Source: Agathobacter sp. (GTDB lineage: Bacteria; Bacillota; Clostridia; Lachnospirales; Lachnospiraceae). Taken from it: 32,166 bases of DNA. Location of the stretch: the NCBI GenBank assembly GCA_022775045.1, contig JALFLB010000009.1, positions 1 through 32,166 of the forward strand, in the 5' to 3' direction. A program made the position numbers and the translations under genes. Below are positions 5,224 through 22,395 of the stretch, piece after piece. The notes under the pieces are model-generated. The model was not told the origin of the DNA. It was given only the letters and a program-made list of their open reading frames with translations, and did no database searches. Numbering within the stretch: position 1 is the stretch's first letter; each line of letters starts with the position of its first letter.

Positions 5224-6627
5224 ATGAGGAAAAATAGATGGAAGCGGGCACTTGCAGCAGTGCTGGCAGTTGTGTTGGCATTACCGGCAGTCCCACATAG
5301 CGTCCGCGCAGACGAGTATTGGCCGGAGGGGCCGAAGACGCAGTCGAAGAGTGCGATTGTTATGGAGGTTAATACAGGGACAATTCTTTATGAGAAGAAA
5401 AGCCATGTAGAACATTATCCGGCAAGTATTACGAAAATTATGACAACGCTTTTGGCTATCGAGAATTGTGAGATGGATGAGATTGTCACTTTTTCGGAGG
5501 ATGCCGTATTTAAAAACGAGGGGGATACCTCACATATTGCAAGAGATTTGGGTGAGAAGCTGACCGTTGAACAATGTTTATATGCGGTCATGCTGGAATC
5601 GGCAAATGAATGCGCGTATGCCGTTGCGGAGCATGTGGGAGAGAAGCTTGGCGGAGACTATCAGACATTTATTGATCTGATGAACGAGCGCGCAAAAGAA
5701 CTTGGTTGCAAAAATACACATTTTAATAACTGTAACGGACTCCCGGATGAGGAACATTGGGTGAGTGCGTATGACATGGCGCTGATTTCGGCGGAGGCAT
5801 ATAAGAACGAAGAGTTTCGCAGGATTACGGGATCTGCCAATTATACAATTCCCAAAACGAACAAATGTAAAGAAGAATATCCGTGCCATAATCATCACAA
5901 GATGATATATCCATTTCGTGGAGACAGTTCCCATCTGTACGAATACTGTACTGGAGGAAAGACCGGATATACGGTTGCTGCGAATAATACGCTGGTTTCT
6001 TTTGCAGAGAAGGATGGTATTACATTAGTCTGTGTTGTGATGAATGTGGATTCACCAGGACACTATACGGATACTCGTAAGCTTTTTGATTATTGTTTTG
6101 AGAATTTTCAGGCACTTAATATTGCTGAAAATGATACAAGCCTGACAGATCGCGCACAAAAGAATTATGGATTGATGAACAATAATGAGCCATATGCAAA
6201 GCTCGATGAAAATGCATACATTATCATGCCAAAAGCTTCGAAGTTTTCTGATGCAAGTTATGAGGAAGATAAGGGTAAAGCAGAGGAGGGGATTATTGCA
6301 AAGCTTAAGTACACGTATGCAGGGCGCGTGGTTGGACGCGCAAATATCGTAGAAACCGGAGTGAAGATTGAGGATAGTTATTTTGAGCAGGAAAAGCCGG
6401 AAAAAACAGATGGAAGCGTTCGGACGATCTGGATTAAGCCGGCGATGTTTGGGGTGGCATTTATTGTAATTCTAATTCTGGTTGTTTTGATTTATCTGGG
6501 GAAAAAGCTGTATGACAATTATTATCTGATACGACACCGGAGGCAGATGAGAAAGATTGATAGGGCACGTTTTAAAGTGTATAAGCGACGAAAGCGGTAC
6601 CACAGAAGAGATCGAATGTTCAAATAG
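5224..6627 (+). CDS. D-alanyl-D-alanine carboxypeptidase (DacF/PBP5-type)
   Basis: A 467-residue secreted, membrane-anchored low-molecular-weight penicillin-binding protein (peptidase family S11) that removes the terminal D-Ala from peptidoglycan stem peptides. An N-terminal signal peptide (about 1-29, ending SVRA) is followed by the catalytic motifs SITK (68-71, Ser nucleophile), SAN (126-128) and KTG (246-248). A C-terminal hydrophobic segment (about 411-432) anchors it, followed by a very basic tail of about 35 residues (YKRRKRYHRRDR). A true membrane span with a cytosolic basic tail differs from the amphipathic helix of Escherichia coli PBP5. It is transcribed alone between a regulatory gap and a terminator. 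Confidence 0.93.
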   Translation: MRKNRWKRALAAVLAVVLALPAVPHSVRADEYWPEGPKTQSKSAIVMEVNTGTILYEKKSHVEHYPASITKIMTTLLAIENCEMDEIVTFSEDAVFKNEGDTSHIARDLGEKLTVEQCLYAVMLESANECAYAVAEHVGEKLGGDYQTFIDLMNERAKELGCKNTHFNNCNGLPDEEHWVSAYDMALISAEAYKNEEFRRITGSANYTIPKTNKCKEEYPCHNHHKMIYPFRGDSSHLYEYCTGGKTGYTVAANNTLVSFAEKDGITLVCVVMNVDSPGHYTDTRKLFDYCFENFQALNIAENDTSLTDRAQKNYGLMNNNEPYAKLDENAYIIMPKASKFSDASYEEDKGKAEEGIIAKLKYTYAGRVVGRANIVETGVKIEDSYFEQEKPEKTDGSVRTIWIKPAMFGVAFIVILILVVLIYLGKKLYDNYYLIRHRRQMRKIDRARFKVYKRRKRYHRRDRMFK

Positions 6628-6668
6628 ACAAAGAACATAGAAAACGACAAAATCAAAGACAATTATAT

Positions 6669-6710
6669 AAAAAACGACAAACTATTTTGGAAATGGTCTG
6701 TCGTTTTTTT
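6669..6710. terminator. Terminator, probably bidirectional
   Basis: An 11-bp stem pairs AAAAAACGACA (6669-6679) with 6699-6709, leaving T7 on the plus strand and a T-run on the minus strand as well. It lies between the convergent carboxypeptidase and ArgR-like genes. A near copy of the left arm (AAAACGACAAAA) also occurs around 6640-6651. Confidence 0.8.
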
Positions 6711-6729
6711 ATATATAGACAATTGGAAA

Positions 6730-7239
6730 TCAACCCCTATTTATCAGACTATTAAGGAGAATCAACAGCTGTTTTTTGTTTTTAGTATAAATTAACAGAC
6801 CGTTTGACGTTTCGACGATGGTAAGAAACTTTCCTTGAAACGTGAGAGATTCCTCCAGCATATGAATCAGGCAGGAGCGCATGTGTGGTGCGGCAGATAA
6901 AAATACGGTCTCGATGTGCTCCATCGGATCGAGGCTCACGGCCGCCAGCTCAAACATGTGGGAGAGCTCCTTCTCCTGATCGAACTGGTCAATGGTTTTG
7001 TTGACAATGAAGTATCCCTTCTCATCTTTTGGCATGTCGAGAGCTTTGACTGCCCGCTGTACCTGTTTGGTAAGTGCATCGGAGGCCGGATAGAGGGATT
7101 CAAAGTAACTTAAAAAGTCAGATGCGCTCTTGAAATGCCGGTTGGTTCCGTGCTGTAGAACTTCTGTCATCAGAATCCGTTTGATTATGCCCTCGCAGGT
7201 TTCCCGGGAAGGATTTTTGCGTAACTTGCCCTGTTCCAT
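6730..7239 (-). CDS. Diverged ArgR-like transcriptional regulator (putative)
   Basis: A 169-residue protein. Residues 36-82 resemble the winged helix of ArgR: SASDFLSYFESLYP, then LTKQVQRAVKALDM in the recognition-helix position (compare VTQATVSRDIKEL), then the wing strand KGYFIVN. Residues 108-166 resemble the ArgR C-terminal oligomerisation domain (IETVFLSAAPHMRSCLIHML, FLTIVETSNGLLIYT). The GDDT arginine-binding aspartates of ArgR appear as ETSN, so arginine sensing is doubtful. A longer frame starts at 7329, but ATG 7239 has a clear site (AAAAGGAG, 7247-7254). It is monocistronic. The fold call is by eye and tentative; another winged-helix family is possible. Confidence 0.5.
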   Translation of the reverse strand: MEQGKLRKNPSRETCEGIIKRILMTEVLQHGTNRHFKSASDFLSYFESLYPASDALTKQVQRAVKALDMPKDEKGYFIVNKTIDQFDQEKELSHMFELAAVSLDPMEHIETVFLSAAPHMRSCLIHMLEESLTFQGKFLTIVETSNGLLIYTKNKKQLLILLNSLINRG

Positions 7240-7319
7240 AATTGTGCTCCTTTTTAGTGCTTGCGCTATTAACCCCACTGGAATGCATACTCGGTCCCAT
7301 CTTGGAGTCCTGTGAAAAT

Positions 7320-7328
7320 AGTATAACA
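7320..7328 (-). promoter_or_regulatory. Possible extended -10 promoter for the ArgR-like gene
   Basis: The minus strand reads TGTTATACT, an extended -10 element (TGnTATACT) about 80 bp upstream of the start codon at 7239. No good -35 box is visible, which is common for extended -10 promoters. Confidence 0.35.
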
Positions 7329-7439
7329 TAGATAGAAGAGGATGTTATATTAATAATTTAGGAATGTCGGCTTATGAGGAACGAAAATCCCGCCTGATTT
7401 AACGCAGGGGTATGGTCTGCAACTTCAGAAAGAATTAAG

Positions 7440-7468
7440 TTGAACTTGTGGACTGGGAGTTATAAAAT
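7440..7468 (+). promoter_or_regulatory. Promoter for the diguanylate cyclase gene
   Basis: TTGAAC (7440-7445) and TAAAAT (7463-7468) are separated by 17 bp. Transcription would start near 7475, just at the ribosome site for the alternative TTG start, which favours the ATG at 7506. Confidence 0.45.
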
Positions 7469-7505
7469 AAAAAGGAGATGATTTTTGAACGTGGAGGTAC
7501 AAAAG

Positions 7506-8567
7506 ATGAACGCTATCGCAAATTGGATTTTGAAGGATACAAAAAATAAGAACGAGAGAAACACAGTAGCAGTAATTCTGCGTACAAGTGCGTTGCTTTT
7601 TTGCTTGTACTTCCTTTGTCTTATGATTGTGTTTTGTACACTTGTAGACTGGGAGAATGCGCTTGTCTGCCTGTTTTGCCTGGGGTGTTATGGAATTTCA
7701 TTTTATACGACATATTTGAATCGAACCAAGCTTTCTGTAGGGATTTCACAGAGCCTGATGGTTTTTTGGATCTTGGTTTTTATAGTGAAATTTGGCTGGG
7801 ATTGTGGTGTACAGCATTATCTGTTTGCATTGCTTGTATTGAATTTTACAGTCAGTACAGCGGAATGGAAAAGCAAAATTGCGGTTGCGGTTGGAGCCTG
7901 TGCCTACCGTCTTGGATTGTATGCCTACACCCGCAGCTTTGCACCATATACGCAGCTTAATCCGAAGGTCAGTGTACTGATGCAGGTTTTGAATACGATT
8001 TTTATTTTTTCACAGATTTCGGCAATTATGATTATTTTTGCAAAGGACTCGCAGAAAATGGAGAAGAAGCTGCAGAAGATGGCTGCGGAGGATCCGTTGA
8101 CCGGGCTTTGGAATCGTTGGAGCATGTGGGAATACATTCGGGGTGTGGAACATCAGTATCTGTCCGGTACCGTAGGATCTATTGCAATCGCAATTGCAGA
8201 TATTGATTTCTTTAAGAAAATTAATGATACCTATGGTCACAATGCAGGTGATCAGGTACTGACTGCGCTCGCAGAGCTATTTCAAAATAAAATGACAGAC
8301 TATGGGAAGGTATGTCGCTGGGGCGGAGAGGAATTTTTGTTTGTCTTTTATGGAAGAACAGGGGATGAGGCATATACAGTGCTCACAGATCTTGTCGGTG
8401 AGATTCATAATATGACCGTTCCGTATGGAGAACAGAAAATACAAATTACGTTGACATTTGGTCTTGAGGAATACGATAAGAACAATAGTATGGAAGAGAT
8501 TATTGGGAAAGCGGATCAAAAACTGTACTGTGGAAAAGAAGCCGGAAGAGACAGAATTGTGTATTGA
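7506..8567 (+). CDS. Membrane-bound GGDEF diguanylate cyclase
   Basis: A 353-residue protein that should make cyclic di-GMP from two GTP. Roughly six hydrophobic segments fill residues 20-180, followed by a short helical linker and a C-terminal GGDEF domain. The GGDEF domain has DPLTGLWNR, the metal/substrate motif ADIDFFKKINDTYGH and the active site GGEEF (273-277). The inhibitory I-site position reads KMTD rather than RxxD, so product inhibition may be weak. The N-terminal membrane domain is a 5-6 TM sensor without a recognised ligand domain. There are two start candidates: TTG 7485 (site AAGGAG) and ATG 7506 (site GGAGGT, 7-nt spacing). The ATG is preferred. It is monocistronic, followed by a gap and the promoter of the next operon. 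Confidence 0.9.
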   Translation: MNAIANWILKDTKNKNERNTVAVILRTSALLFCLYFLCLMIVFCTLVDWENALVCLFCLGCYGISFYTTYLNRTKLSVGISQSLMVFWILVFIVKFGWDCGVQHYLFALLVLNFTVSTAEWKSKIAVAVGACAYRLGLYAYTRSFAPYTQLNPKVSVLMQVLNTIFIFSQISAIMIIFAKDSQKMEKKLQKMAAEDPLTGLWNRWSMWEYIRGVEHQYLSGTVGSIAIAIADIDFFKKINDTYGHNAGDQVLTALAELFQNKMTDYGKVCRWGGEEFLFVFYGRTGDEAYTVLTDLVGEIHNMTVPYGEQKIQITLTFGLEEYDKNNSMEEIIGKADQKLYCGKEAGRDRIVY

Positions 8568-8617: not shown

Positions 8618-8646
8618 TTGACGCGCTCTCTCAAATAGCGTAAAAT
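8618..8646 (+). promoter_or_regulatory. Strong sigma-A promoter for the abiEi-to-trmN6 operon
   Basis: TTGACG (8618-8623) and TAAAAT (8641-8646) are separated by exactly 17 bp. The predicted transcript starts near 8653, 32 bp upstream of the AbiEi-like start. No comparable promoter was seen in the short gaps further down the operon. Confidence 0.7.
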
Positions 8647-8684
8647 ATGAAATAAATACCACTATTATTTTTATGGAGCGGAAA

Positions 8685-9296
8685 ATGTCGACGAATAAAC
8701 AAGAAACGTTAGAGAAATTATACGCTTTTATTGAGAAAAAGGGCGGGATTGTAAAGAAGGAAGAGTTTGCAGAACTTGGGGTGGACTACCGGAAAATCCT
8801 TCAGTTTGTGGAGGATGGTTCACTGGTACGGGTTAAGAACGGGTATTACACAGACAGGATGGATCGTTTTTCAGAGGACGAATTGATTGCCCGGCTGTTT
8901 CCGGATGCGCGTTTGTGCATGGAGAGTGCGTTGTATGCATATGGCTATCTGAAGGAGAAACCATATGGCTGGCATCTGGCAGTGGACAAGAATACATCCA
9001 AATCGCGGTTTAAAATGGATTACCCGAAGGTGATTCCCTATTATACCGAGCCGGAGGCGCTGGAGCTTGGGTCGACAAAGATTGAGATGAATGGGCTGAC
9101 TTTTCAGATTTATGACAAGGAGCGAATGATCTGTGATTGCTTAAAGTATGAGGACAAGCTGGATCATACGGTATTTCGTGAGGCAGTTCAGGCTTACATC
9201 CGCGATCGTGATAAGGACATCTCCACGCTGATGGAATATGCGAGGGCACGCAAGGTAACAGGGCGTGTCCAGAGCCTGATCGGAGTGTGGCTGTAA
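8685..9296 (+). CDS. AbiEi-family antitoxin/transcriptional regulator
   Basis: A 203-residue protein matching the type IV antitoxin AbiEi layout. It opens with a winged helix (about residues 8-60: GGIVKKEEFAELGVDYRKIL, SLVRVKNGYY). The AbiEi C-terminal domain follows with LFPDARLCMESALYAYGYL, WHLAVDKNTS, YYTEPEALELG, the YDKERMICDCLKYE block (compare YxxERTICDxI) and ISTLMEYARARKV. AbiEi proteins bind the promoter of their operon and repress it, and usually pair with an AbiEii nucleotidyltransferase. ATG 8685 has a site (GGAG, 8675) whereas ATG 8673 has none. The stop overlaps the next start (TAATG). It is the first gene of a long operon containing holB and ricT, an unusual place for an abortive-infection module. 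Confidence 0.85.
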   Translation: MSTNKQETLEKLYAFIEKKGGIVKKEEFAELGVDYRKILQFVEDGSLVRVKNGYYTDRMDRFSEDELIARLFPDARLCMESALYAYGYLKEKPYGWHLAVDKNTSKSRFKMDYPKVIPYYTEPEALELGSTKIEMNGLTFQIYDKERMICDCLKYEDKLDHTVFREAVQAYIRDRDKDISTLMEYARARKVTGRVQSLIGVWL

Positions 9297-10207
9297 TGAA
9301 GGTCGGAGTATGTGAGTCTACAGAACTGAAGGAACGCAGCGAGGCGCTTGCAGTGTCATTTGCAGATCTGCTCTGGGGCTATGTGGTGGAGGACATGATG
9401 CTGCGGGTCAGTACGTCAGCTTATAAAGAAGTGTTGTGGCTCATGACGCTTCCTCTTCTTGGAATCGACGCATACAGGGAGCGTGCGAAGAAGCATATTC
9501 GCTTTTTTTACCAGGAGAGTGAGAGGGCACTGCCGCCAGAAAAGCTGAGACCGGGGCAGAAGCTGTCCCTTGCTATGGGAAACCACATCTGTAAAGAAGT
9601 GTTTGATGGGGAGAATGCGCAGAAAATCATATGGGAAAGCAGCGTTTCCGCGATTGCAGGAGGCGTTGTGCTAAATATGATTGCAAATTATCAGGATATG
9701 AAGGTCCCACTGACATTGGAAATCTACAGCTTCGGGGCAGTTACACAGATTCCCGGGAAAAAGGAGGAGGAACTGCCGGCAATCGGAGGGAAAAAGATTA
9801 CCTATCTTGTGTATTCGCCGGAAAGCGAACTGAGTTATGACTTATTTGCCATTATGGATAAGCTGGAATTGATCGCAAGCATGGGCAGTTACTATGATGC
9901 GTATCGTCTGCTCAAGAGCCAGTCTCTCAGTGGCCGCTATGTGTTGGAAGAACTGACCCTTTTGGCCAAGTCTTCTCCCAAGATAAAAAAAGAGCAGCGG
10001 CTGAAGCAGCTGGAAGGCTATCGCACATATGCTTATATGCGCAAACGCTGGGATAAGTATCTTCGCAACCATGGAGTGAAAGCTGTGGCATGGGAGGAAG
10101 CTCTGGATATCATACTGGCCTTTGTCGGACCAATCTGGAAGAGCCTCTGCCGCAACGAGATTTTCTTTGATGACTGGATGCCGGAACTTGGCAGATTTCT
10201 TGGGTAA
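9296..10207 (+). CDS. AbiEii-like protein with degenerate nucleotidyltransferase motifs
   Basis: A 303-residue protein with no obvious family at first sight. By eye it lines up with AbiEii toxins: MMLRVSTSAYKEVLWL (34-49) against LxRLSxSxYKDxFxLKGG, PLLGIDAYRER (53-63) against the GxxxRxTxDxD region, and KVPLTLEIYSFGAVTQI (136-152) against the KxPlxlDIxxGD strand. LFAIMDKLELIAS with YYDAYRLL (183-206) matches the AEKLExI / DxYDIYLL block, and RWDKYLRNH with VAWEEALDIILAF (251-276) matches the C-terminus. The catalytic KGG reads LMTL and the DxD metal pair reads KKHIRF, so nucleotide transfer seems unlikely. ATG 9296 overlaps the AbiEi stop, indicating translational coupling; GTG 9287 is an alternative. 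Function unknown; a structural partner or evolved regulator is possible. Confidence 0.55.
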   Translation: MKVGVCESTELKERSEALAVSFADLLWGYVVEDMMLRVSTSAYKEVLWLMTLPLLGIDAYRERAKKHIRFFYQESERALPPEKLRPGQKLSLAMGNHICKEVFDGENAQKIIWESSVSAIAGGVVLNMIANYQDMKVPLTLEIYSFGAVTQIPGKKEEELPAIGGKKITYLVYSPESELSYDLFAIMDKLELIASMGSYYDAYRLLKSQSLSGRYVLEELTLLAKSSPKIKKEQRLKQLEGYRTYAYMRKRWDKYLRNHGVKAVAWEEALDIILAFVGPIWKSLCRNEIFFDDWMPELGRFLG

Positions 10208-10219
10208 AAGGAACATATC

Positions 10220-11623
10220 ATGATAGAAGAACGACTGAACAAACTGGCACTATCCAATATTTATCCTTTTCATATGCCGGGGCACAAGCGCAGAGAACTG
10301 GAGTTTCCCAATCCTTATGCCATTGATATCACGGAGATTGAGGGATTTGACAATCTTCATCATGCTGAGGGAATTTTGCGAGAGGCACAGGAAAAGGCGG
10401 CGAGGCTGTATGATGCGAAGCAGACATACTATCTGGTTAACGGGAGCACCTGTGGCATTTTGGCAGCAATCAGTGCAACTGTGCCGAGGGGTGGGCGCAT
10501 TTTGGTAGCACGTAACAGCCACAAGGCAGTGTACAATGCGGTTTATCTGCGGCAACTTTCCCCGGAATATGTGTATCCGGCAGACACACGCTGTGGCATT
10601 CAGGGGCAGATTATACCGAAGCAGGTAGAACAGAAGCTGATCGAATTCCCGGATATCAAGGCGGTTGTCATCACCTCGCCGACTTATGACGGGATTGTGT
10701 CGGATGTCGCGGGGATTGCCGAGGTTGCGCACAATTTCGGCATTCCACTCATTGTAGATGAGGCGCATGGCGCACATTTTGGATTTCATCCGGCGTTTCC
10801 GGAAAATGCAGTAAAGCTAGGGGCGGATGCTGTGATTATGAGTGTTCACAAAACGCTTCCTGCATTTACACAAACGGCGCTTTTACATTTGTGTTCCGAC
10901 AGGATTGATCATACGTGCATTGAGAGATTTCTTGGTATCTATGAGACAAGTTCTCCATCGTATGTGCTGATGGCAGGGATTGAAAAAAGCCTTGTCCTGG
11001 TTGAGAGACAGGGACAGGAACTGTTTGCACAATACGCAGGTATTTTGGCTGAGTTTCGGAACTCTGTTCAGGATCTAAAGCATTTATGGGTGCCGGGAGC
11101 AGAGGATTTTTCTCAGGATGAGGCATGGGCTTTCGATGCGGGAAAGCTTCTGATTATCAGCCGCGGGAGAATGAGCGGGCAGCAGCTGCAGGAACGGCTG
11201 TTTAAAGAATATGGACTGCAGACGGAGATGTCCAGTGGCAACTATGTGCTTGCCATGACATCTCTCATGGACCGGCAGGAGGGATTTGACAGACTTTCGA
11301 GGGCGCTCCATGCGATTGATGCGGGGCTGCATGAGGAGGAAATAACATCTTTTTCCCCACGGGAAATCTACTGTCAGCCGGAAAAGGTGATGGAGATTTA
11401 TGAGGCGGATGAGGCGCCACACGGATGTGTTCCCCTTGCCAAAGCTGCCGACAGGGTGTCGGCAGATACAATTTGCCTGTATCCTCCCGGAATTCCTCTG
11501 CTTGTACCGGGGGAGCGGATAGACAGGAAGATGGTGGAAACAATACGAAGGTGTCTGGAGCTGGGGCTGGATGTCGAGGGATTGTTGGAGAATCATGGCA
11601 TAAACATTGTACAAATCGGCTGA
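10220..11623 (+). CDS. Orn/Lys/Arg decarboxylase family PLP enzyme (YaaO type)
   Basis: A 467-residue fold-type I PLP enzyme. It starts with FHMPGHKR (17-24) and shows the substrate/PLP loop VNGSTCGI (73-80), the stacking region ARNSHKA, DEAHGAH (180-186, with the Asp that pairs with the PLP ring nitrogen) and the Schiff-base lysine in SVHKTLPAFTQ (K211). A C-terminal decarboxylase domain ends with YPPGIPLLVPGE. Length and motifs match the short, wing-less Bacillus YaaO/SpeA group, which decarboxylates a basic amino acid; lysine, arginine or ornithine cannot be told apart here. Its place just before a nucleotide kinase, yaaR, holB and ricT reproduces the Bacillus yaaO-tmk-yaaQ-yaaR-holB-yaaT order. 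There is a 12-bp gap after the AbiEii-like gene. Confidence 0.9.
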   Translation: MIEERLNKLALSNIYPFHMPGHKRRELEFPNPYAIDITEIEGFDNLHHAEGILREAQEKAARLYDAKQTYYLVNGSTCGILAAISATVPRGGRILVARNSHKAVYNAVYLRQLSPEYVYPADTRCGIQGQIIPKQVEQKLIEFPDIKAVVITSPTYDGIVSDVAGIAEVAHNFGIPLIVDEAHGAHFGFHPAFPENAVKLGADAVIMSVHKTLPAFTQTALLHLCSDRIDHTCIERFLGIYETSSPSYVLMAGIEKSLVLVERQGQELFAQYAGILAEFRNSVQDLKHLWVPGAEDFSQDEAWAFDAGKLLIISRGRMSGQQLQERLFKEYGLQTEMSSGNYVLAMTSLMDRQEGFDRLSRALHAIDAGLHEEEITSFSPREIYCQPEKVMEIYEADEAPHGCVPLAKAADRVSADTICLYPPGIPLLVPGERIDRKMVETIRRCLELGLDVEGLLENHGINIVQIG

Positions 11624-11649
11624 ATAGATTATACTAGAGGAAGAGATAA

Positions 11650-12246
11650 ATGGGAAAAATATATTGTGTCATGGGGAAAAGCTCCTCGGGCAAGGACAGT
11701 ATTTATCAGCAGATCATGCAGCAGAGAAAGCTGCCGCTCGAGCGGATTATTCCTTACACTACCCGCCCGATCCGGGAAGGGGAGGAGGATGGCCGAGAGT
11801 ATCATTTCTGTAGCGAGGAAACCGTGCAGCAGTTGGAAAACGCGGGCGCGATTGTGGAACTTCGTGTGTACCATACGGTTTACGGAATCTGGAAGTACTT
11901 TACGGTGGATGATGGTCAGATTGATTTGGAGAATCACAGTTATCTGTATATTGTGACGCTGGAAGGCTATCTGAAAATACAAAAATACTTTGGAAAAGAT
12001 CGGGTTGTGCCGATTTATATAGAAGTAGAGGATGGGCAGAGGCTGCTTCGGGCAATTGCCAGAGAACAGCGGCAGGGGAAGCCGGGATACGAGGAAATGT
12101 GCCGACGATTTCTGGCGGATGCGGCAGATTTTTCTGAGGAAAAGCTTACCGGGGCAGGCATAAAAAAGCGTTTTATGAACCAGCAACTGGATGAAACGAT
12201 CTGCGAAATTATGGAATATATTAGAAACAATATGAATGAAGATTGA
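11650..12246 (+). CDS. Guanylate kinase-like protein
   Basis: A 198-residue P-loop kinase. The P-loop is GKSSSGKDS (9-17), unlike the usual GPSGVGKxT. The GMP-binding lid region [10 protein letters not shown] with DGREYHF (36-53) is typical of guanylate kinases. Later segments ([34 protein letters not shown]) follow the guanylate kinase fold. In Bacillus the thymidylate kinase gene tmk occupies this operon position, so the local slot is filled by a different nucleotide kinase. The altered P-loop (Lys-Asp-Ser) and diverged second half suggest a paralogue rather than the main gmk. The activity is plausible but the substrate is uncertain. Confidence 0.8.
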
Positions 12247-12284
12247 TTAGGCTCTGCAGAATGGAGCCTGAGGAGATTTTTCTT

Positions 12285-12725
12285 ATGAGTGTGAAGATTA
12301 ATGATATTACTCAGATCAATCAAATACCGGAAGCGGCTAAGAACGTGGAGGGAGATGGCTCCTTCAAGTTTACGCTGGCAAGTGCCATCACAGATGCGGA
12401 TCTGCAGGCGAAAGTTGATGCGCTGCTGAACGATATCACTGCACAGGGGAACCGGCTTGCGGAGCATATGGATATCCGTGATATGAAAAAGTACCGCGGA
12501 CTGGTGAAAGAGTTTTTGAACGAGGTGGTTTATCGCTCCCATAAGTTTTCCAGAGAGAATTTTCTGGATCGGAGAGGTCGTCACCGTGTATATGGAATCA
12601 TCCGTCTGATTGATAAAAATCTGGATGAACTGGCCAGTGAGCTGGTGGCGGATGAGAAAGATCATATTTCCATTCTTGACAGGATTGGGGAGATCAAAGG
12701 ATTGCTTTTGGATATACTGACATAA
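12285..12725 (+). CDS. yaaR: YaaR family protein (DUF327)
   Basis: A 146-residue helical protein of the YaaR/DUF327 family, conserved in Firmicutes between a nucleotide kinase gene and holB. Recognisable features are [20 protein letters not shown] near the N-terminus, [20 protein letters not shown] in the middle and the end [15 protein letters not shown]. Its molecular role is not established. An upstream in-frame ATG at 12243 exists, but ATG 12285 has the better site (GAGGAG, 9-nt spacing). A small hairpin (AGGCTC/GAGCCT, 12249-12269) lies in the gap just upstream. Confidence 0.85.
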
Positions 12726-12758
12726 CCGGATGTGGAAGAGTAAGAGAGGGGGAGAATT

Positions 12759-13748
12759 ATGGCAGGTTTTAAAGATATTGTTGGACATGAACAGATTATA
12801 GAACATTTACGAAATGCAATTACCCTCGATAAAGTTTCACATGCATACATTCTGAACGGACCGGAGGCATCTGGTAAGATGATGCTGGCAGAGGCGTTTG
12901 CCATGGCGCTGCAGTGTGAGAGCGAGGGAGAGAGACCTTGCCTGTCCTGCCGTTCCTGTAGACAGGCGATGGATCATAATCAGCCGGATATCATTTATGT
13001 GTCCCATGAGAAGCCGAATACCATCGGAGTTGATGACATTCGGACTCAGGTGAATAATGATATCGGCATCAAGCCTTACAGCAGTCGATACAAGGTCTAC
13101 ATTATCGATGAGGCACAGAAGATGAACCAGCAGGCGCAGAATGCACTTCTTAAGACCATTGAGGAGCCGCCGGCTTATGGGGTGATCATGCTTTTGACCA
13201 CAAATGCGGACAGCTTTTTACCGACGATTTTGTCGCGGTGTATTCGTCTGGATTTAAAGACAGTGAAGGAAGATGTCATTCGCAATTATCTGATGCAGAA
13301 ATTTCAGGTTCCGGATTATCAGGCGGATATCTGCGCAGCCTTTGCACAGGGTAATGTAGGGAAAGCGGTTCAGCTGGTTTCTTCGGAAGACTTTGTAGAA
13401 CTAAAGGCATCTGTACTGCAACTGGTGAAGCGATTGGACGATATTGATGTCTATGAGATGACGGCGGCGGTTAAGCAGATTGCAGAATATAAACTCTCAG
13501 TCAATGATTATTTTGACTTGATGATGATCTGGTTTCGGGATGTGTTGTATCTGAAAGCAACAAACGATGTGAACAGACTCATTTTCAAAGATGAGGTCTA
13601 TGATATAAAAAAACAGGCAGCGAAGAGATCCTATCATGGACTTGAGACGATTCTTCGGGCGCTCGAGACTGCGAAGGTGCGTGTGTCGGCGAATGTGAAT
13701 TTCGATCTTGTAATTGAATTGCTGCTTTTGACAATTAAGGAGAACTGA
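12759..13748 (+). CDS. holB: DNA polymerase III subunit delta-prime
   Basis: A 329-residue AAA+ clamp-loader subunit that, with the delta and tau/gamma subunits, loads the sliding clamp. Visible motifs are the degenerate P-loop GPEASGKMM (34-42), the zinc site C53-x7-C61-x2-C64-x2-C67, Walker B IIDEA (115-119), NALLKTIEEPP (128-138) and the sensor-1/arginine-finger SRC (159-161). The collar domain fills the C-terminus. It starts with a good site (GAGAGGGGGAG) 33 bp after yaaR and is followed after one base by ricT, matching the Bacillus holB-yaaT order. Confidence 0.93.
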   Translation: MAGFKDIVGHEQIIEHLRNAITLDKVSHAYILNGPEASGKMMLAEAFAMALQCESEGERPCLSCRSCRQAMDHNQPDIIYVSHEKPNTIGVDDIRTQVNNDIGIKPYSSRYKVYIIDEAQKMNQQAQNALLKTIEEPPAYGVIMLLTTNADSFLPTILSRCIRLDLKTVKEDVIRNYLMQKFQVPDYQADICAAFAQGNVGKAVQLVSSEDFVELKASVLQLVKRLDDIDVYEMTAAVKQIAEYKLSVNDYFDLMMIWFRDVLYLKATNDVNRLIFKDEVYDIKKQAAKRSYHGLETILRALETAKVRVSANVNFDLVIELLLLTIKEN

Positions 13749-13749
13749 C

Positions 13750-14934
13750 ATGACAAAAATTGTAGGAATACGTTTTCAGCGGGCGGGAAAAATCTATTAT
13801 TTTGATCCGCTGGACTATGAGCTGGAAACAGGCATGCACGTGATTGTTGAGACCGCACGAGGCGTGGAGATGGGAACCGTTCTGATTCCGCCGAAGGAGG
13901 TGGAGGATGATAAAGTAGTCCAGCCGTTAAAGCCGGTGATTCGGGTGGCAACGGACGAAGACGAAAAAGTGATGGAGCACAATCGCGAAAAAGAAGCGGA
14001 GGCTTTTGTCATCTGTAAAGAGAAGATTGCCAAGCACGGGCTTGAGATGAAGCTGGTTGCGGCAGAGTATACTTTTGACAACAATAAGCTTCTGTTCTAT
14101 TTTACTGCGGATGGACGGATTGATTTCCGTGAGCTGGTGAAGGATCTTGCTTCTGTATTTCGTACCAGAATCGAGTTGCGTCAGATTGGAGTGAGGGATG
14201 AGACAAAAATGCTCGGCGGTATCGGTATCTGTGGGCGGGAACTGTGCTGTAAGGCATATTTGACGGATTTTATTCCGGTGTCGATCAAGATGGCGAAGGA
14301 GCAGAATCTTTCGCTTAATCCTACCAAAATATCCGGTGTGTGTGGAAGACTGATGTGCTGTCTGAAAAATGAGCAGGAAACCTATGAGTATCTCAACGGT
14401 CGTCTGCCATCTGTTGGAGATACCGTGACCACACCGAATGGTATGAGGGGAGAAGTGACGGGAATCAATGTGCTGCGACAGCTGGTTAAGATTGTTGTGG
14501 ACAATGGTGAGGAGAAGGAGTTGCAGGAGTATTCTGTGGATGATCTTCGTTTCACACCACGCCGTCGCAAGGATGTCAAGCTGACGGAGGAAGAACTGAA
14601 GGAACTCGAAGGATTAGAAGACAACGGGGAGGCTGAGGAGGAGAAGCCCGAGCGTGAAAACCGCCGTGATAACAATCGTTTCCAGCGTGACAATCGTGGT
14701 GATCATGAGCGGAATGAAAGAAACAGGGATCACTGGGATAATCGTGGTAAAGAAGGCCGCAGAGATAACAACCGGGAGAACCAGGGAGAAAATAACAGAG
14801 GTAACAGAGAACGTTCCAACGAGCGCAGGGATTACAACAGGCGGAACGGACGGGGGCACCGAAATTTTAATAAAAACAATCAGGATGGATCAAACCGTGG
14901 AGAACGTAGCGGAGACAATCATACACAGTCATGA
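13750..14934 (+). CDS. ricT: RicT/YaaT PSP1-domain protein with long Arg/Asn-rich tail
   Basis: A 394-residue protein. Residues 1-270 match YaaT/RicT, a PSP1-domain subunit of the Y-complex that in Bacillus works with RNase Y in mRNA processing and binds iron-sulfur clusters. The conserved cysteines occur in GICGRELCCKAYL (C161, C166, C167) and GVCGRLMCCL (C198, C203, C204). LRQIGVRDETKMLGG and LPSVGDTVTTPNGMRGEV are also family hallmarks. From about 295 the protein changes to a charged, low-complexity tail of about 100 residues made mostly of Arg, Asn, Asp, Glu and Gly (RRDNN, RGNRE, NRRNGRG). Bacillus YaaT (about 275 residues) has no such tail. The gene starts 1 bp after holB and its last 50 bp overlap the next gene. 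Confidence 0.92.
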   Translation: MTKIVGIRFQRAGKIYYFDPLDYELETGMHVIVETARGVEMGTVLIPPKEVEDDKVVQPLKPVIRVATDEDEKVMEHNREKEAEAFVICKEKIAKHGLEMKLVAAEYTFDNNKLLFYFTADGRIDFRELVKDLASVFRTRIELRQIGVRDETKMLGGIGICGRELCCKAYLTDFIPVSIKMAKEQNLSLNPTKISGVCGRLMCCLKNEQETYEYLNGRLPSVGDTVTTPNGMRGEVTGINVLRQLVKIVVDNGEEKELQEYSVDDLRFTPRRRKDVKLTEEELKELEGLEDNGEAEEEKPERENRRDNNRFQRDNRGDHERNERNRDHWDNRGKEGRRDNNRENQGENNRGNRERSNERRDYNRRNGRGHRNFNKNNQDGSNRGERSGDNHTQS

Positions 14935-15646
14935 GAGGCTGGATGAACTTCATAGAAATGGTTACAGGATCATCCAGGACAAGGGGCGTTTTTGCTTTGG
15001 CATGGACGCAGTCCTGTTGTCCGGCTTTGCAAAGGTAAAGCCGGACGAGCAGGCGTTGGATTTGGGAACAGGAACCGGAATTATTCCGATTCTGCTGGAA
15101 GCAAAGACCGATGGAAGGCATTTTGTAGGCCTGGAGATTCAGGAGGAGAGTGCGGATATGGCTTCGCGCAGCGTTGCTTACAACGGACTTGAAGAAAAGA
15201 TTGAAATTGTGACCGGAGACATCAAGGATGCTTCAAATATTTTTGGAGCATCTTCTTTTGATGTGATTACGACCAATCCTCCTTACATGATCGGACAGCA
15301 CGGACTTAAGAATGAGGAGGATGCAAAGGCGATTGCACGCCATGAGATTTTGTGCACCCTGGATGATGTTTTGCGTGAGAGCGCAAAAATTTTAAAACCG
15401 GGAGGCCGTTTTTACATGGTGCATCGTCCTTTCCGCCTGGCGGAAATCTTAAGTGCAATGGTGCAGTATCGGATTGAACCCAAGCGGATGCGTCTGGTTT
15501 ATCCCTTTGTGGATAAGGAACCGAACATGGTACTTATTGAGGGGTTGCGAGGTGGAAGATCGCGGATGACAGTGGAAAAGCCGCTCATCGTCTACAGGGA
15601 GCCGGGGGTATATACAGACGAGATTTATGATATTTACGGGTATTAA
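14885..15646 (+). CDS. trmN6: tRNA1(Val) adenine-N6 methyltransferase-like protein (YabB/TrmN6)
   Basis: A 253-residue SAM methyltransferase of the TrmN6/YabB group, which methylates an adenine in tRNA(Val). It has ERLDELHRNGYRIIQ and FGMDAVLLSGFAK near the N-terminus, SAM motif I LDLGTGTGIIPILL (58-71), VGLEIQEESADMA (81-93) and the N6-adenine methylation motif NPPY (131-134). The frame stays open upstream to 14654 inside ricT, but that extra part is only the out-of-frame reading of the repetitive ricT tail. The start is uncertain: ATG 14885 or GTG 14897, both with weak ribosome sites, implying translation coupled to ricT. It follows ricT as yabB closely follows yaaT in Bacillus. Confidence 0.9.
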   Translation: MDQTVENVAETIIHSHERLDELHRNGYRIIQDKGRFCFGMDAVLLSGFAKVKPDEQALDLGTGTGIIPILLEAKTDGRHFVGLEIQEESADMASRSVAYNGLEEKIEIVTGDIKDASNIFGASSFDVITTNPPYMIGQHGLKNEEDAKAIARHEILCTLDDVLRESAKILKPGGRFYMVHRPFRLAEILSAMVQYRIEPKRMRLVYPFVDKEPNMVLIEGLRGGRSRMTVEKPLIVYREPGVYTDEIYDIYGY

Positions 15647-15737
15647 ACGGTTCATTTCAGAAAATGGTACATTTGGGTAATTGTTTTAAGGGACATTTCA
15701 TGATAAAGTCATAGTAAATTTATATGAAATAGGCAAA

Positions 15738-15768
15738 GAAGCATCTCTACAGAGGGATGCTTTTTTTT
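15738..15768 (+). terminator. Terminator of the abiEi-to-trmN6 operon
   Basis: The stem AAGCATC (15739-15745) pairs with GATGCTT (15756-15762), with a 10-nt loop, followed by a run of eight T. It lies about 90 bp after trmN6 and only 6 bp before the ribosome site of the next small gene, so that gene must be read through it or be attenuated by it. Confidence 0.8.
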
Positions 15769-20888: not shown

Positions 20889-21725
20889 ATGGGAGCACAG
20901 GACAATACCGAGAAGGTGCTGCGCAGTCTTCATGTTTTGCTGTCGAAGAGTGAGCCGTATCCGAAGGAACCAAGTAAGGTAATTGTGGATAAGCAGCAGA
21001 TGCTGGATCTGCTGGCTAATTTGAACAGCTGCATTTATCAGATCATGGATGAGTATGAATTGACGAAACGCAGCCGTGATAAGGCAGAACGCGAATTTCA
21101 CAAGCAGGGGGATCAGATTATCCGGGATGCTAACCGCAAGGCGGAGGATATCTATGCGGCATCTGTGATGTATATGGATGAGGCGCTGGGGCGGATGCAG
21201 GAAATCATGAAAGATGCGCAGAAGAAGGTCGCAGAAATCTACACAAATGTGGATGAACAGATGAAGAAAGAAGAGCGTGTAGTCAAGACCAACCAGTTGG
21301 AACTGAAGAGTCAGATGCAGGATCTGGTTGACACGGAAAAATATTTAAAGTTGATCGAGGAACGCAATCGGGAAATCGAGAAACAGAAAAATGAAGGGAA
21401 ACCTGCTCCGGAAAAGGAACGGTCAATCTATGCGGATCGTAAAACAGAGATCCGTGTGAATCAGGAGTATCTGGATAAGCTCGGGATGTCGGTTGTGGAT
21501 GAGACAGAAAAGGAAATACAAAACGACGGAGACCGGGATGAGGAAGACCGGGAATTAAAGAAGCTTGAGGCAGAAATCCGTGTGAATCTGGATGCTGATT
21601 ATTTTCAGTGGAGAGAGGAACAAAACGGTGGAAATAAGGATAAAAGTAAGGAAAGACCGGAAGGTTTCCAGCATAAGATAAAGAATCTGTTAGGAGGACA
21701 CCAGCATGACGATTCTGGTATGTGA
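20889..21725 (+). CDS. Coiled-coil protein of unknown function, coupled to a two-component system
   Basis: A 278-residue highly charged protein without signal peptide or membrane span. Residues 30-175 look like one long helix with heptads (KQQMLDLLANLNSCIYQIMD, DANRKAEDIYAASVMYMDEA, MQEIMKDAQKKVAEIY), resembling DivIVA-like or F0-b-like stalks in general character only. The C-terminal third is acidic/basic and probably disordered (DRDEEDRELKKLEAEIR, NGGNKDKSKERPEGF). It starts with ATATAGGAG before ATG 20889 and ends 20 bp inside the response regulator gene, implying coupled translation. I do not recognise a named family. A scaffold or polar-organisation role is conceivable, but only inferred from shape. 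Confidence 0.75.
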   Translation: MGAQDNTEKVLRSLHVLLSKSEPYPKEPSKVIVDKQQMLDLLANLNSCIYQIMDEYELTKRSRDKAEREFHKQGDQIIRDANRKAEDIYAASVMYMDEALGRMQEIMKDAQKKVAEIYTNVDEQMKKEERVVKTNQLELKSQMQDLVDTEKYLKLIEERNREIEKQKNEGKPAPEKERSIYADRKTEIRVNQEYLDKLGMSVVDETEKEIQNDGDRDEEDRELKKLEAEIRVNLDADYFQWREEQNGGNKDKSKERPEGFQHKIKNLLGGHQHDDSGM

Positions 21726-22395
21726 TGACGATAGGGAAATTGTAGATGCGATTGAGATTTATCTCCTTCAGGAGGGATTTGCCGTGGAGAAAGCGTATGA
21801 TGGAGAGCAGGCACTTGAAGCATTGCGCACGAAATCCATTGATCTGATGGTGATTGATGTCATGATGCCTAAGCTCGACGGAATCCGGGCAACCTTTCAG
21901 GCGCGCAAGACCAGCAGCATTCCGATTATCATTCTCTCTGCCAAGACAGAGGATGCAGACAAGATTCTCGGGCTTAATGTAGGTGCGGATGATTATGTTA
22001 CCAAACCGTTTAATCCGCTGGAGCTGGTTGCACGTGTAAAATCACAGCTGCGAAGGTATACAACACTGTCGAGTCCGATTTCTGGAGAGACTGTTTATGA
22101 GACGGGCGGACTGGTTGTGAACGATGATCTGAAGAAAGTGACGGTGGACGGGGAGGAAGTGAAGCTGACACCTATTGAATATAATATCCTGCTTCTTCTC
22201 ATGAAAAACATGGGTAAGGTGTTTTCTATCAGTAAGATCTATGAGGAAATCTGGAATGAGGAGGCAATCGGAGCAGACAATACGGTTGCTGTTCACATTC
22301 GGCATATCCGTGAGAAAATTGAGATTAATCCCAAGGAGCCGCGGTATCTCAAGGTTGTCTGGGGTGTTGGATACAAAATCGAGCCGGGAGTATAG
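21706..22395 (+). CDS. OmpR/PhoB-family response regulator
   Basis: A 229-residue regulator. The receiver domain has the acidic pocket D7/D8, phosphoacceptor D51 in MVIDVMMPKLDG, and K100 in VTKPFNPLEL. The C-terminal OmpR-type winged helix spans about 130-227 (VKLTPIEYNILLLLMKN, TVAVHIRHIREKIE, VWGVGYKIE). It overlaps the coiled-coil gene by 20 bp and has its own site (TTAGGAGGA) inside that gene. The cognate kinase gene starts 6 bp after its stop. Overall it resembles VanR-like regulators of Firmicutes; targets cannot be read here. Confidence 0.95.
   Translation: MTILVCDDDREIVDAIEIYLLQEGFAVEKAYDGEQALEALRTKSIDLMVIDVMMPKLDGIRATFQARKTSSIPIIILSAKTEDADKILGLNVGADDYVTKPFNPLELVARVKSQLRRYTTLSSPISGETVYETGGLVVNDDLKKVTVDGEEVKLTPIEYNILLLLMKNMGKVFSISKIYEEIWNEEAIGADNTVAVHIRHIREKIEINPKEPRYLKVVWGVGYKIEPGV

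Follow-up and report, generated by a model that had tools for sequence, protein, structure and literature searches.

The window, a stretch of 32,166 nucleotides that constitutes contig C54 of a 2.45-Mb Agathobacter sp. genome, carries an AbiEi-type regulator gene and an AbiEii-derived partner gene at the head of a run of genes on the same strand. The features relevant to the pair are the following.

6733..7236, minus strand: small conserved protein, possibly an ArgR-like regulator (no Pfam family; weak ArgR fold match, E 8e-3)
8618..8646, plus strand: promoter of the pair, -35 TTGACG, 17-bp spacer, -10 TAAAAT (10 of 12; the arrangement recurs in many relatives)
8656..8684, plus strand: probable AbiEi operator, inverted repeat ACCAC (8658-8662)-N15-GCGG (8678-8681) (conservation, shuffle test)
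8685..9296, plus strand: AbiEi-type regulator, open frame from 8673 (PADLOC AbiEi, 213 bits; phmmer)
9296..10207, plus strand: AbiEii-derived pseudo-nucleotidyltransferase from ATG 9296, 303 aa, with conserved C-terminal tail DEIFFDDWMPELGRFL (hhalign, AF2 model, motif table)
10220..11623, plus strand: Orn/Lys/Arg decarboxylase-family protein of yaaO/odc type, next after the partner (Pfam OKR_DC_1, 187.7 bits)
11650..12246, plus strand: guanylate-kinase-like protein, gmk-like (Pfam Guanylate_kin, 53.8 bits; under the NCBIfam guanylate kinase cut-off)
12285..12725, plus strand: YaaR (DUF327), from ATG 12285 (Pfam, 159.7 bits)
12759..13748, plus strand: HolB, DNA polymerase III delta prime (Pfam and NCBIfam searches; NCBIfam matches under cut-offs)
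13750..14934, plus strand: RicT (YaaT/PSP1) (NCBIfam RicT, 316.8 bits)
14936..15646, plus strand: TrmN6-like methyltransferase (top NCBIfam match TrmN, 66.4 bits, under the cut-off of 350)
15735..15766, plus strand: terminator-like hairpin ending the gene run (sequence scan)

The open reading frames, strand, gaps and terminator listed in a sequence-only reading of this DNA were all present as described, and the promoter it placed at 8618-8646 was found and is conserved in relatives. From abiEi to trmN6, the genes are spaced by gaps of 1-38 bp with a single 1-base overlap, and a sequence scan of the interval between the pair and odc in the window found no credible terminator. An internal promoter near 10210, which would have separated the pair from the genes that follow, has no room, as the gap between the partner and odc (10208-10219) measures 12 bp and is too short for any promoter. 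The interior of the partner gene holds two weak candidates for a promoter (9869 and 10085, each matching 9 of 12 positions); such sites numbered 28 in a 10-kb scan, versus a shuffle mean of 15.1. A GGDEF protein is encoded at 7485-8567 (+), between the divergent gene and abiEi, and no GGDEF gene was found at that position in the relatives tabulated.

The AbiEi regulator and its predicted operator

The regulator has the architecture of AbiEi, an N-terminal wHTH followed by a C-terminal domain, as indicated by a full-length PADLOC match and by the structures retrieved with phmmer, namely AbiGI 9hlo (E 5.9e-16) and 6y8q, titled abortive phage infection protein (E 6.5e-16); its Pfam AbiEi_4 score of 25.8 bits is barely above the cut-off of 25. 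The true start is probably 8685: in several relatives the ATG at 8673 reads ACG, and a likely Shine-Dalgarno sequence, GGAG, comes immediately after it. Motifs common to this protein and 20 canonical AbiEi, including C-terminal ones, were recognised by eye, and conservation is higher in the antitoxin-type C-terminal domain (0.72) than in the DNA-binding part (0.65). The nearest canonical antitoxins are ~40% identical. In a tree built from every second row of the locus AbiEi and from the top BLAST matches as the canonical set, 37 AbiEi from the holB locus formed one clade against the 20 canonical sequences (support 100/99), a picture that wider sampling of canonical AbiEi could alter. In contrast to the fixed site of the locus pair, the canonical AbiEi L202 and L214 share an identical sequence although they come from different families.

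The putative operator follows the -10 box and precedes the start codon, and it overlaps the Shine-Dalgarno sequence. The common layout upstream of abiEi is TTGAC[AG]-N17-TAWAAT followed by TACCAC-N15-G[CT]GG, in which the spacer letters vary and the length is fixed. Of 78 thinned upstream regions, 43 had the operator core at spacing 15 (shuffle mean 0.02), and four matches in total came from the remaining 24 spacings between 5 and 29. The strict pattern was missing from 35/78 regions, in some of which abiEi lies directly behind dac or has a misplaced start. The genome of the window contains a single perfect match, at the abiEi promoter, and therefore no visible AbiEi regulon to explain retention of the module. 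With a slightly stricter pattern, the 1.30 Mb made up of the named-genome loci (best 80 of 123) and the window yielded 50 matches at abiEi promoters and six elsewhere. The operator described for S. agalactiae contains ACCAC-N15-GTAGT, one base short of a perfect half-site repeat (PMC3985639). The closest canonical AbiEi by tree position, L204, is preceded by a perfect TTTTGCCGC-N15-GCGGCAAAA repeat with equal spacing but farther upstream, and a comparable repeat was absent from the upstream regions of the other 19 canonical AbiEi. Genome G014, on its contig L151, has lost abiEi along with the repeat and retains the partner with a promoter-like sequence before it. Autoregulation by AbiEi, suggested in the sequence-only reading, is made probable by this conserved predicted operator.

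The AbiEii-derived partner

The partner aligns with canonical AbiEii over its full length (hhalign, 99.9%) and has a PADLOC AbiEii score of 322 bits, the PADLOC model PDLC02311 matching 29/29 aligned partners. MenT3 was the top fold match of its AF2 model (pLDDT 89.8), with weak matches to MiD49 and NF45/NF90, and hhalign, the model and the fold search agree on a DUF1814/MenT nucleotidyltransferase fold over the full length. Searches of the window partner against Pfam and NCBIfam matched no family, and Pfam AbiEii (PF08843) was above its curated cut-off in 0/29 aligned partners. The NTase motifs I-IV, the defining feature of AbiEii, were lost in a comparison of 102 partners with 15 canonical AbiEii, chosen by hand as the closest subfamily among 30 control loci. 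The first G of motif I is kept in 1/102 partners versus 14/15 canonical proteins, the D residues of motif II in 2 and 9 of 102 versus 15 and 15 of 15, the third D in 1/102 versus 15/15, the K of motif III in 8/102 versus 15/15, and the first D of motif IV in 2/102 versus 15/15; the motif I-II columns align poorly to the partners, which leaves single counts uncertain and the overall loss plain. Toxicity of S. agalactiae AbiEii was eliminated by single substitutions in every one of motifs I-IV, although G50A by itself had no such effect (PMC3985639). Given the motif loss and these published mutants, toxicity of the known AbiEii/MenT type is not expected of the partner, and a working AbiEii toxin in the pair is not supported. 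Since the defining motifs are missing, the pair is not filed as a type IV toxin-antitoxin system, and by its sequence the regulatory half is AbiE-like.

The loss of catalytic motifs and the absence of the partner from 5/36 own-plus-same-genus genomes could point to a decaying AbiE remnant on its way out. However, dN/dS (NG86) was far under 1 in the 12 most similar of 40 pairs listed, with values of 0.04-0.21 in the partner and of 0.007-0.040 in AbiEi, in a set where members recur between pairs and many more distant pairs are saturated. No stop codons occur in the partner matches listed among the 36 genomes, the operator is conserved at one spacing, and the C-terminal tail of the partner is strongly conserved with invariant residues. 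Decay was rejected on these grounds as hardly credible.

The partner diverges fast, with a median pairwise identity of 31% versus 55% for AbiEi, a trait also of toxins and defence proteins. This divergence would suit a live toxin-antitoxin or abortive-infection system, in which AbiEi would be the antitoxin of a partner whose toxicity came from a different chemistry or simply from binding; the PADLOC AbiEii label of all 29 aligned partners, the retention of the AbiEi antitoxin-type domain and its canonical C-terminal motifs point the same way. Nevertheless, such a system is unlikely, as the motifs required for toxicity are absent, the partner is kept without abiEi in G014, which a free toxin should not permit, and the pair is inherited vertically at a fixed site, unlike the accessory AbiE of the same genomes.

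Distribution of the pair and its relation to holB and ricT

The pair is not a recent insertion in a single strain, an outcome that the sequence-only reading had considered. Strong matches to the partner (E <= 1.2e-29) were found at a fixed site in 31/36 own-plus-same-genus genomes, the exceptions being G010, G020, G021, G025 and G027, and AbiEi was found in 30/36 (E <= 1e-76), G014 carrying the partner and no AbiEi. Across the family, 29/397 genomes had partner matches at E <= 3.6e-18. AbiEi adjoins the partner in 27 of the 28 loci besides the window (L031-L058), with L031 at a contig edge. Named genomes supplied 123 relatives, of which the best 80 loci were kept, and counts use the loci with enough flank. 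In these best 80 of 123, AbiEi stands beside the partner in 75/76 testable loci; upstream are a homologue of the divergent 6733-7236 gene (56/70 testable loci) and dac (54/57), and downstream, in 65 testable loci, odc (61), gmk-like (63), yaaR (64), holB (63), ricT (63) and trmN (60). The pair has thus long been present at this site upstream of holB in Lachnospiraceae. AbiEi comes first in a bicistronic order, with a median gap of -1 across 78 loci. Among named relatives (best 80 of 123), the partner is closest to that of an Agathobacter sp. MAG (79%), followed by that of Roseburia faecis (75%). L115, a contig labelled Muribaculaceae (Bacteroidota), carries a Lachnospiraceae pair locus and is probably a mislabelled or mixed MAG.

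In the 49 loci holding all eight compared genes, pairwise AbiEi and partner distances track those of dac, trmB, yaaR, holB, ricT and trmN (Spearman 0.49-0.74; holB versus ricT, 0.71). The sporadic, varied locations expected of a mobile or accessory defence unit were not seen, the site of the pair being fixed, and the best reading is a single-origin, vertically inherited module. Genes matching PF08843 occupied 37 places in 23/60 genomes, none of them at the holB locus. The pair could serve as an anti-addiction module, in which AbiEi would counter AbiE toxins arriving on mobile elements and the inactive AbiEii would do no more than set the AbiEi level. The presence of AbiEii genes elsewhere in 23/60 genomes and the strong selection on the AbiEi antitoxin domain would agree with this proposal, but it leaves unexplained both the strongly conserved C-terminal tail and the survival of the partner without AbiEi in G014, and it is also weakened by the distance of AbiEi from canonical antitoxins, the nearest of which share only ~40% identity with it. 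This proposal is very improbable. Two AbiE-like pairs with PF08843 AbiEii lie in the same genome as the window (G000:C40:56873-58259 and 21089-22395), and these are useful as internal controls.

A further proposal of the sequence-only reading was that the pair could tune the expression of the clamp loader and RicT. In favour of a dedicated regulator of the holB-ricT operon are the shared strand, small gaps and lack of a credible terminator in the window, and the presence of odc to ricT downstream in 61-64/65 loci (best 80 of 123). However, a convergent mobA lies directly after the partner and separates the pair from odc in 17/80 named loci (best 80 of 123); the pair persists in all 17 and the operator is retained in 16/17. 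The identity of mobA was supported by Pfam NTP_transf_3 in four of four tested. Twelve of the 17 loci are titled Pseudobutyrivibrio, the rest including Roseburia hominis, and they therefore represent few events, not 17; in Roseburia inulinivorans (L143), mobA is also found between the pair and odc, farther away. Moreover, G010, G025 and G027 have no pair and no 6733-7236 homologue, yet keep gmk-like, yaaR, holB, ricT and trmN, with odc or gmk-like immediately after dac. The pair is absent from G021 too, but a contig end is close by. None of the six off-promoter operator matches lies upstream of odc. Eight sequences sampled from further families of the order contained no pair; all eight have holB-ricT-trmN and seven have yaaR. 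A dedicated regulator is accordingly quite unlikely, and of the earlier interpretation the AbiE-derived pair, its probable autoregulation and the old site stand, whereas the tuning of holB and ricT is not supported. In the window, odc-holB-ricT-trmN are probably partly under the promoter of the pair through readthrough; across the clade, such coupling is not necessarily present.

The downstream genes themselves show some variation. In L110, the closest named relative, an AAA-ATPase-like/PD-(D/E)XK gene (6338-7918) is inserted between odc and gmk-like, and L173 and L189 have yaaR-holB insertions of ~4.8 and ~5.3 kb. At the gmk-like position (11650-12246 in the window), several other families of the order (L100-L104, L106) have unlabelled ORFs of ~205 and ~109 aa, which by the B. 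subtilis gene order may be tmk and yaaQ/darA.

Proposed domestication and comparison with known systems

The pair is likely a domesticated AbiE module, fixed once and vertically inherited, with its catalytic motifs lost and its autoregulation apparently live. An AbiE toxin-antitoxin pair would have been fixed once in the Roseburia/Agathobacter/Pseudobutyrivibrio ancestor, upstream of odc-yaaR-holB-ricT-trmN, and vertically inherited ever since. The conservation, the fixed spacing and the match in geometry to a proven operator are observed, and from these we infer that AbiEi, still complete, would repress its own promoter, two subunits binding the inverted repeat ACCAC-N15-GYGG that lies behind the -10 box and ahead of the start codon. 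AbiEii would have become a pseudo-enzyme that kept the nucleotidyltransferase fold and lost the catalytic motifs, most likely acting as a non-catalytic binding protein via its conserved C-terminal tail, either together with AbiEi, as a partner that responds to a signal, or on a different target. The coupling of odc-holB-ricT-trmN by readthrough would be a by-product of position and not a conserved function.

The AbiE type IV toxin-antitoxin system of S. agalactiae resembles the pair in gene order and overlap, in a full-length AbiEi, in a promoter inverted repeat with ACCAC-N15 geometry, and in the profile match over the full length of the partner. In contrast, the window partner has neither NTase motifs I-IV nor a Pfam AbiEii match, and the pair occupies a fixed chromosomal site with vertical inheritance. 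MiD49 and NF45/NF90 are pseudo-nucleotidyltransferases in which the NTase fold is reused for binding; they are eukaryotic and unrelated in sequence to the partner, and the weak fold matches make them an analogy only. MenT toxins of M. tuberculosis are described as modifying tRNA, whereas the partner has ~10% identity to MenT3/TglT (Rv1045) and MenT4 (Rv2826c) and has lost the catalytic residues. AbiEi is presented as a regulator beyond defence in Mesorhizobium huakuii, on the evidence of a mutant transcriptome, and its partner there slows E. coli growth on induction (PMC8436566); the window pair differs in its pseudo-enzyme partner and in the one operator seen. Limited searches of literature titles and abstract openings returned no AbiE-type pair at holB and no dead AbiEii in Lachnospiraceae.

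If domesticated, the pair would seem to be a clear example of a host retaining a toxin-antitoxin unit after disarming it, apparently from a single origin, and would show that AbiEi autoregulation is able to outlive toxicity. Natural experiments are on hand in the mobA insertions, the loss of AbiEi and the loss of the whole module, along with canonical AbiE relatives in the same genomes. As PADLOC scores the partners as AbiEii, AbiE counts in common gut Roseburia/Agathobacter may be inflated.

A more specific reading, tentative and somewhat short of probable, is that a phage-defence toxin-antitoxin module became, in one event, a core regulatory unit of the lineage, in which the pseudo-NTase senses a cellular signal or relays it to AbiEi, AbiEi responds at a single operator, and the 6733-7236 gene is a third part of the switch. 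The model of this small protein (pLDDT 91.6, pTM 0.57) weakly resembles ArgR, and its N-terminal half is strongly conserved. The gene was found in 25/60 genomes, every one of the same genus as the window and partner-positive; five same-genus genomes have neither gene and six have the partner alone (Fisher p 0.0012, relatedness uncorrected). A homologue also flanks the pair in other genera. The gene is not always needed, since 14/70 pair loci (best 80 of 123) have no homologue nearby. In L111-L128, the interval between the divergent gene and abiEi contains another inverted repeat that is also conserved, TGTCCTAAT...ATTATAGGACA, recognised by eye close to CAACGACAAAA; this repeat is perhaps a control site of the divergent gene.
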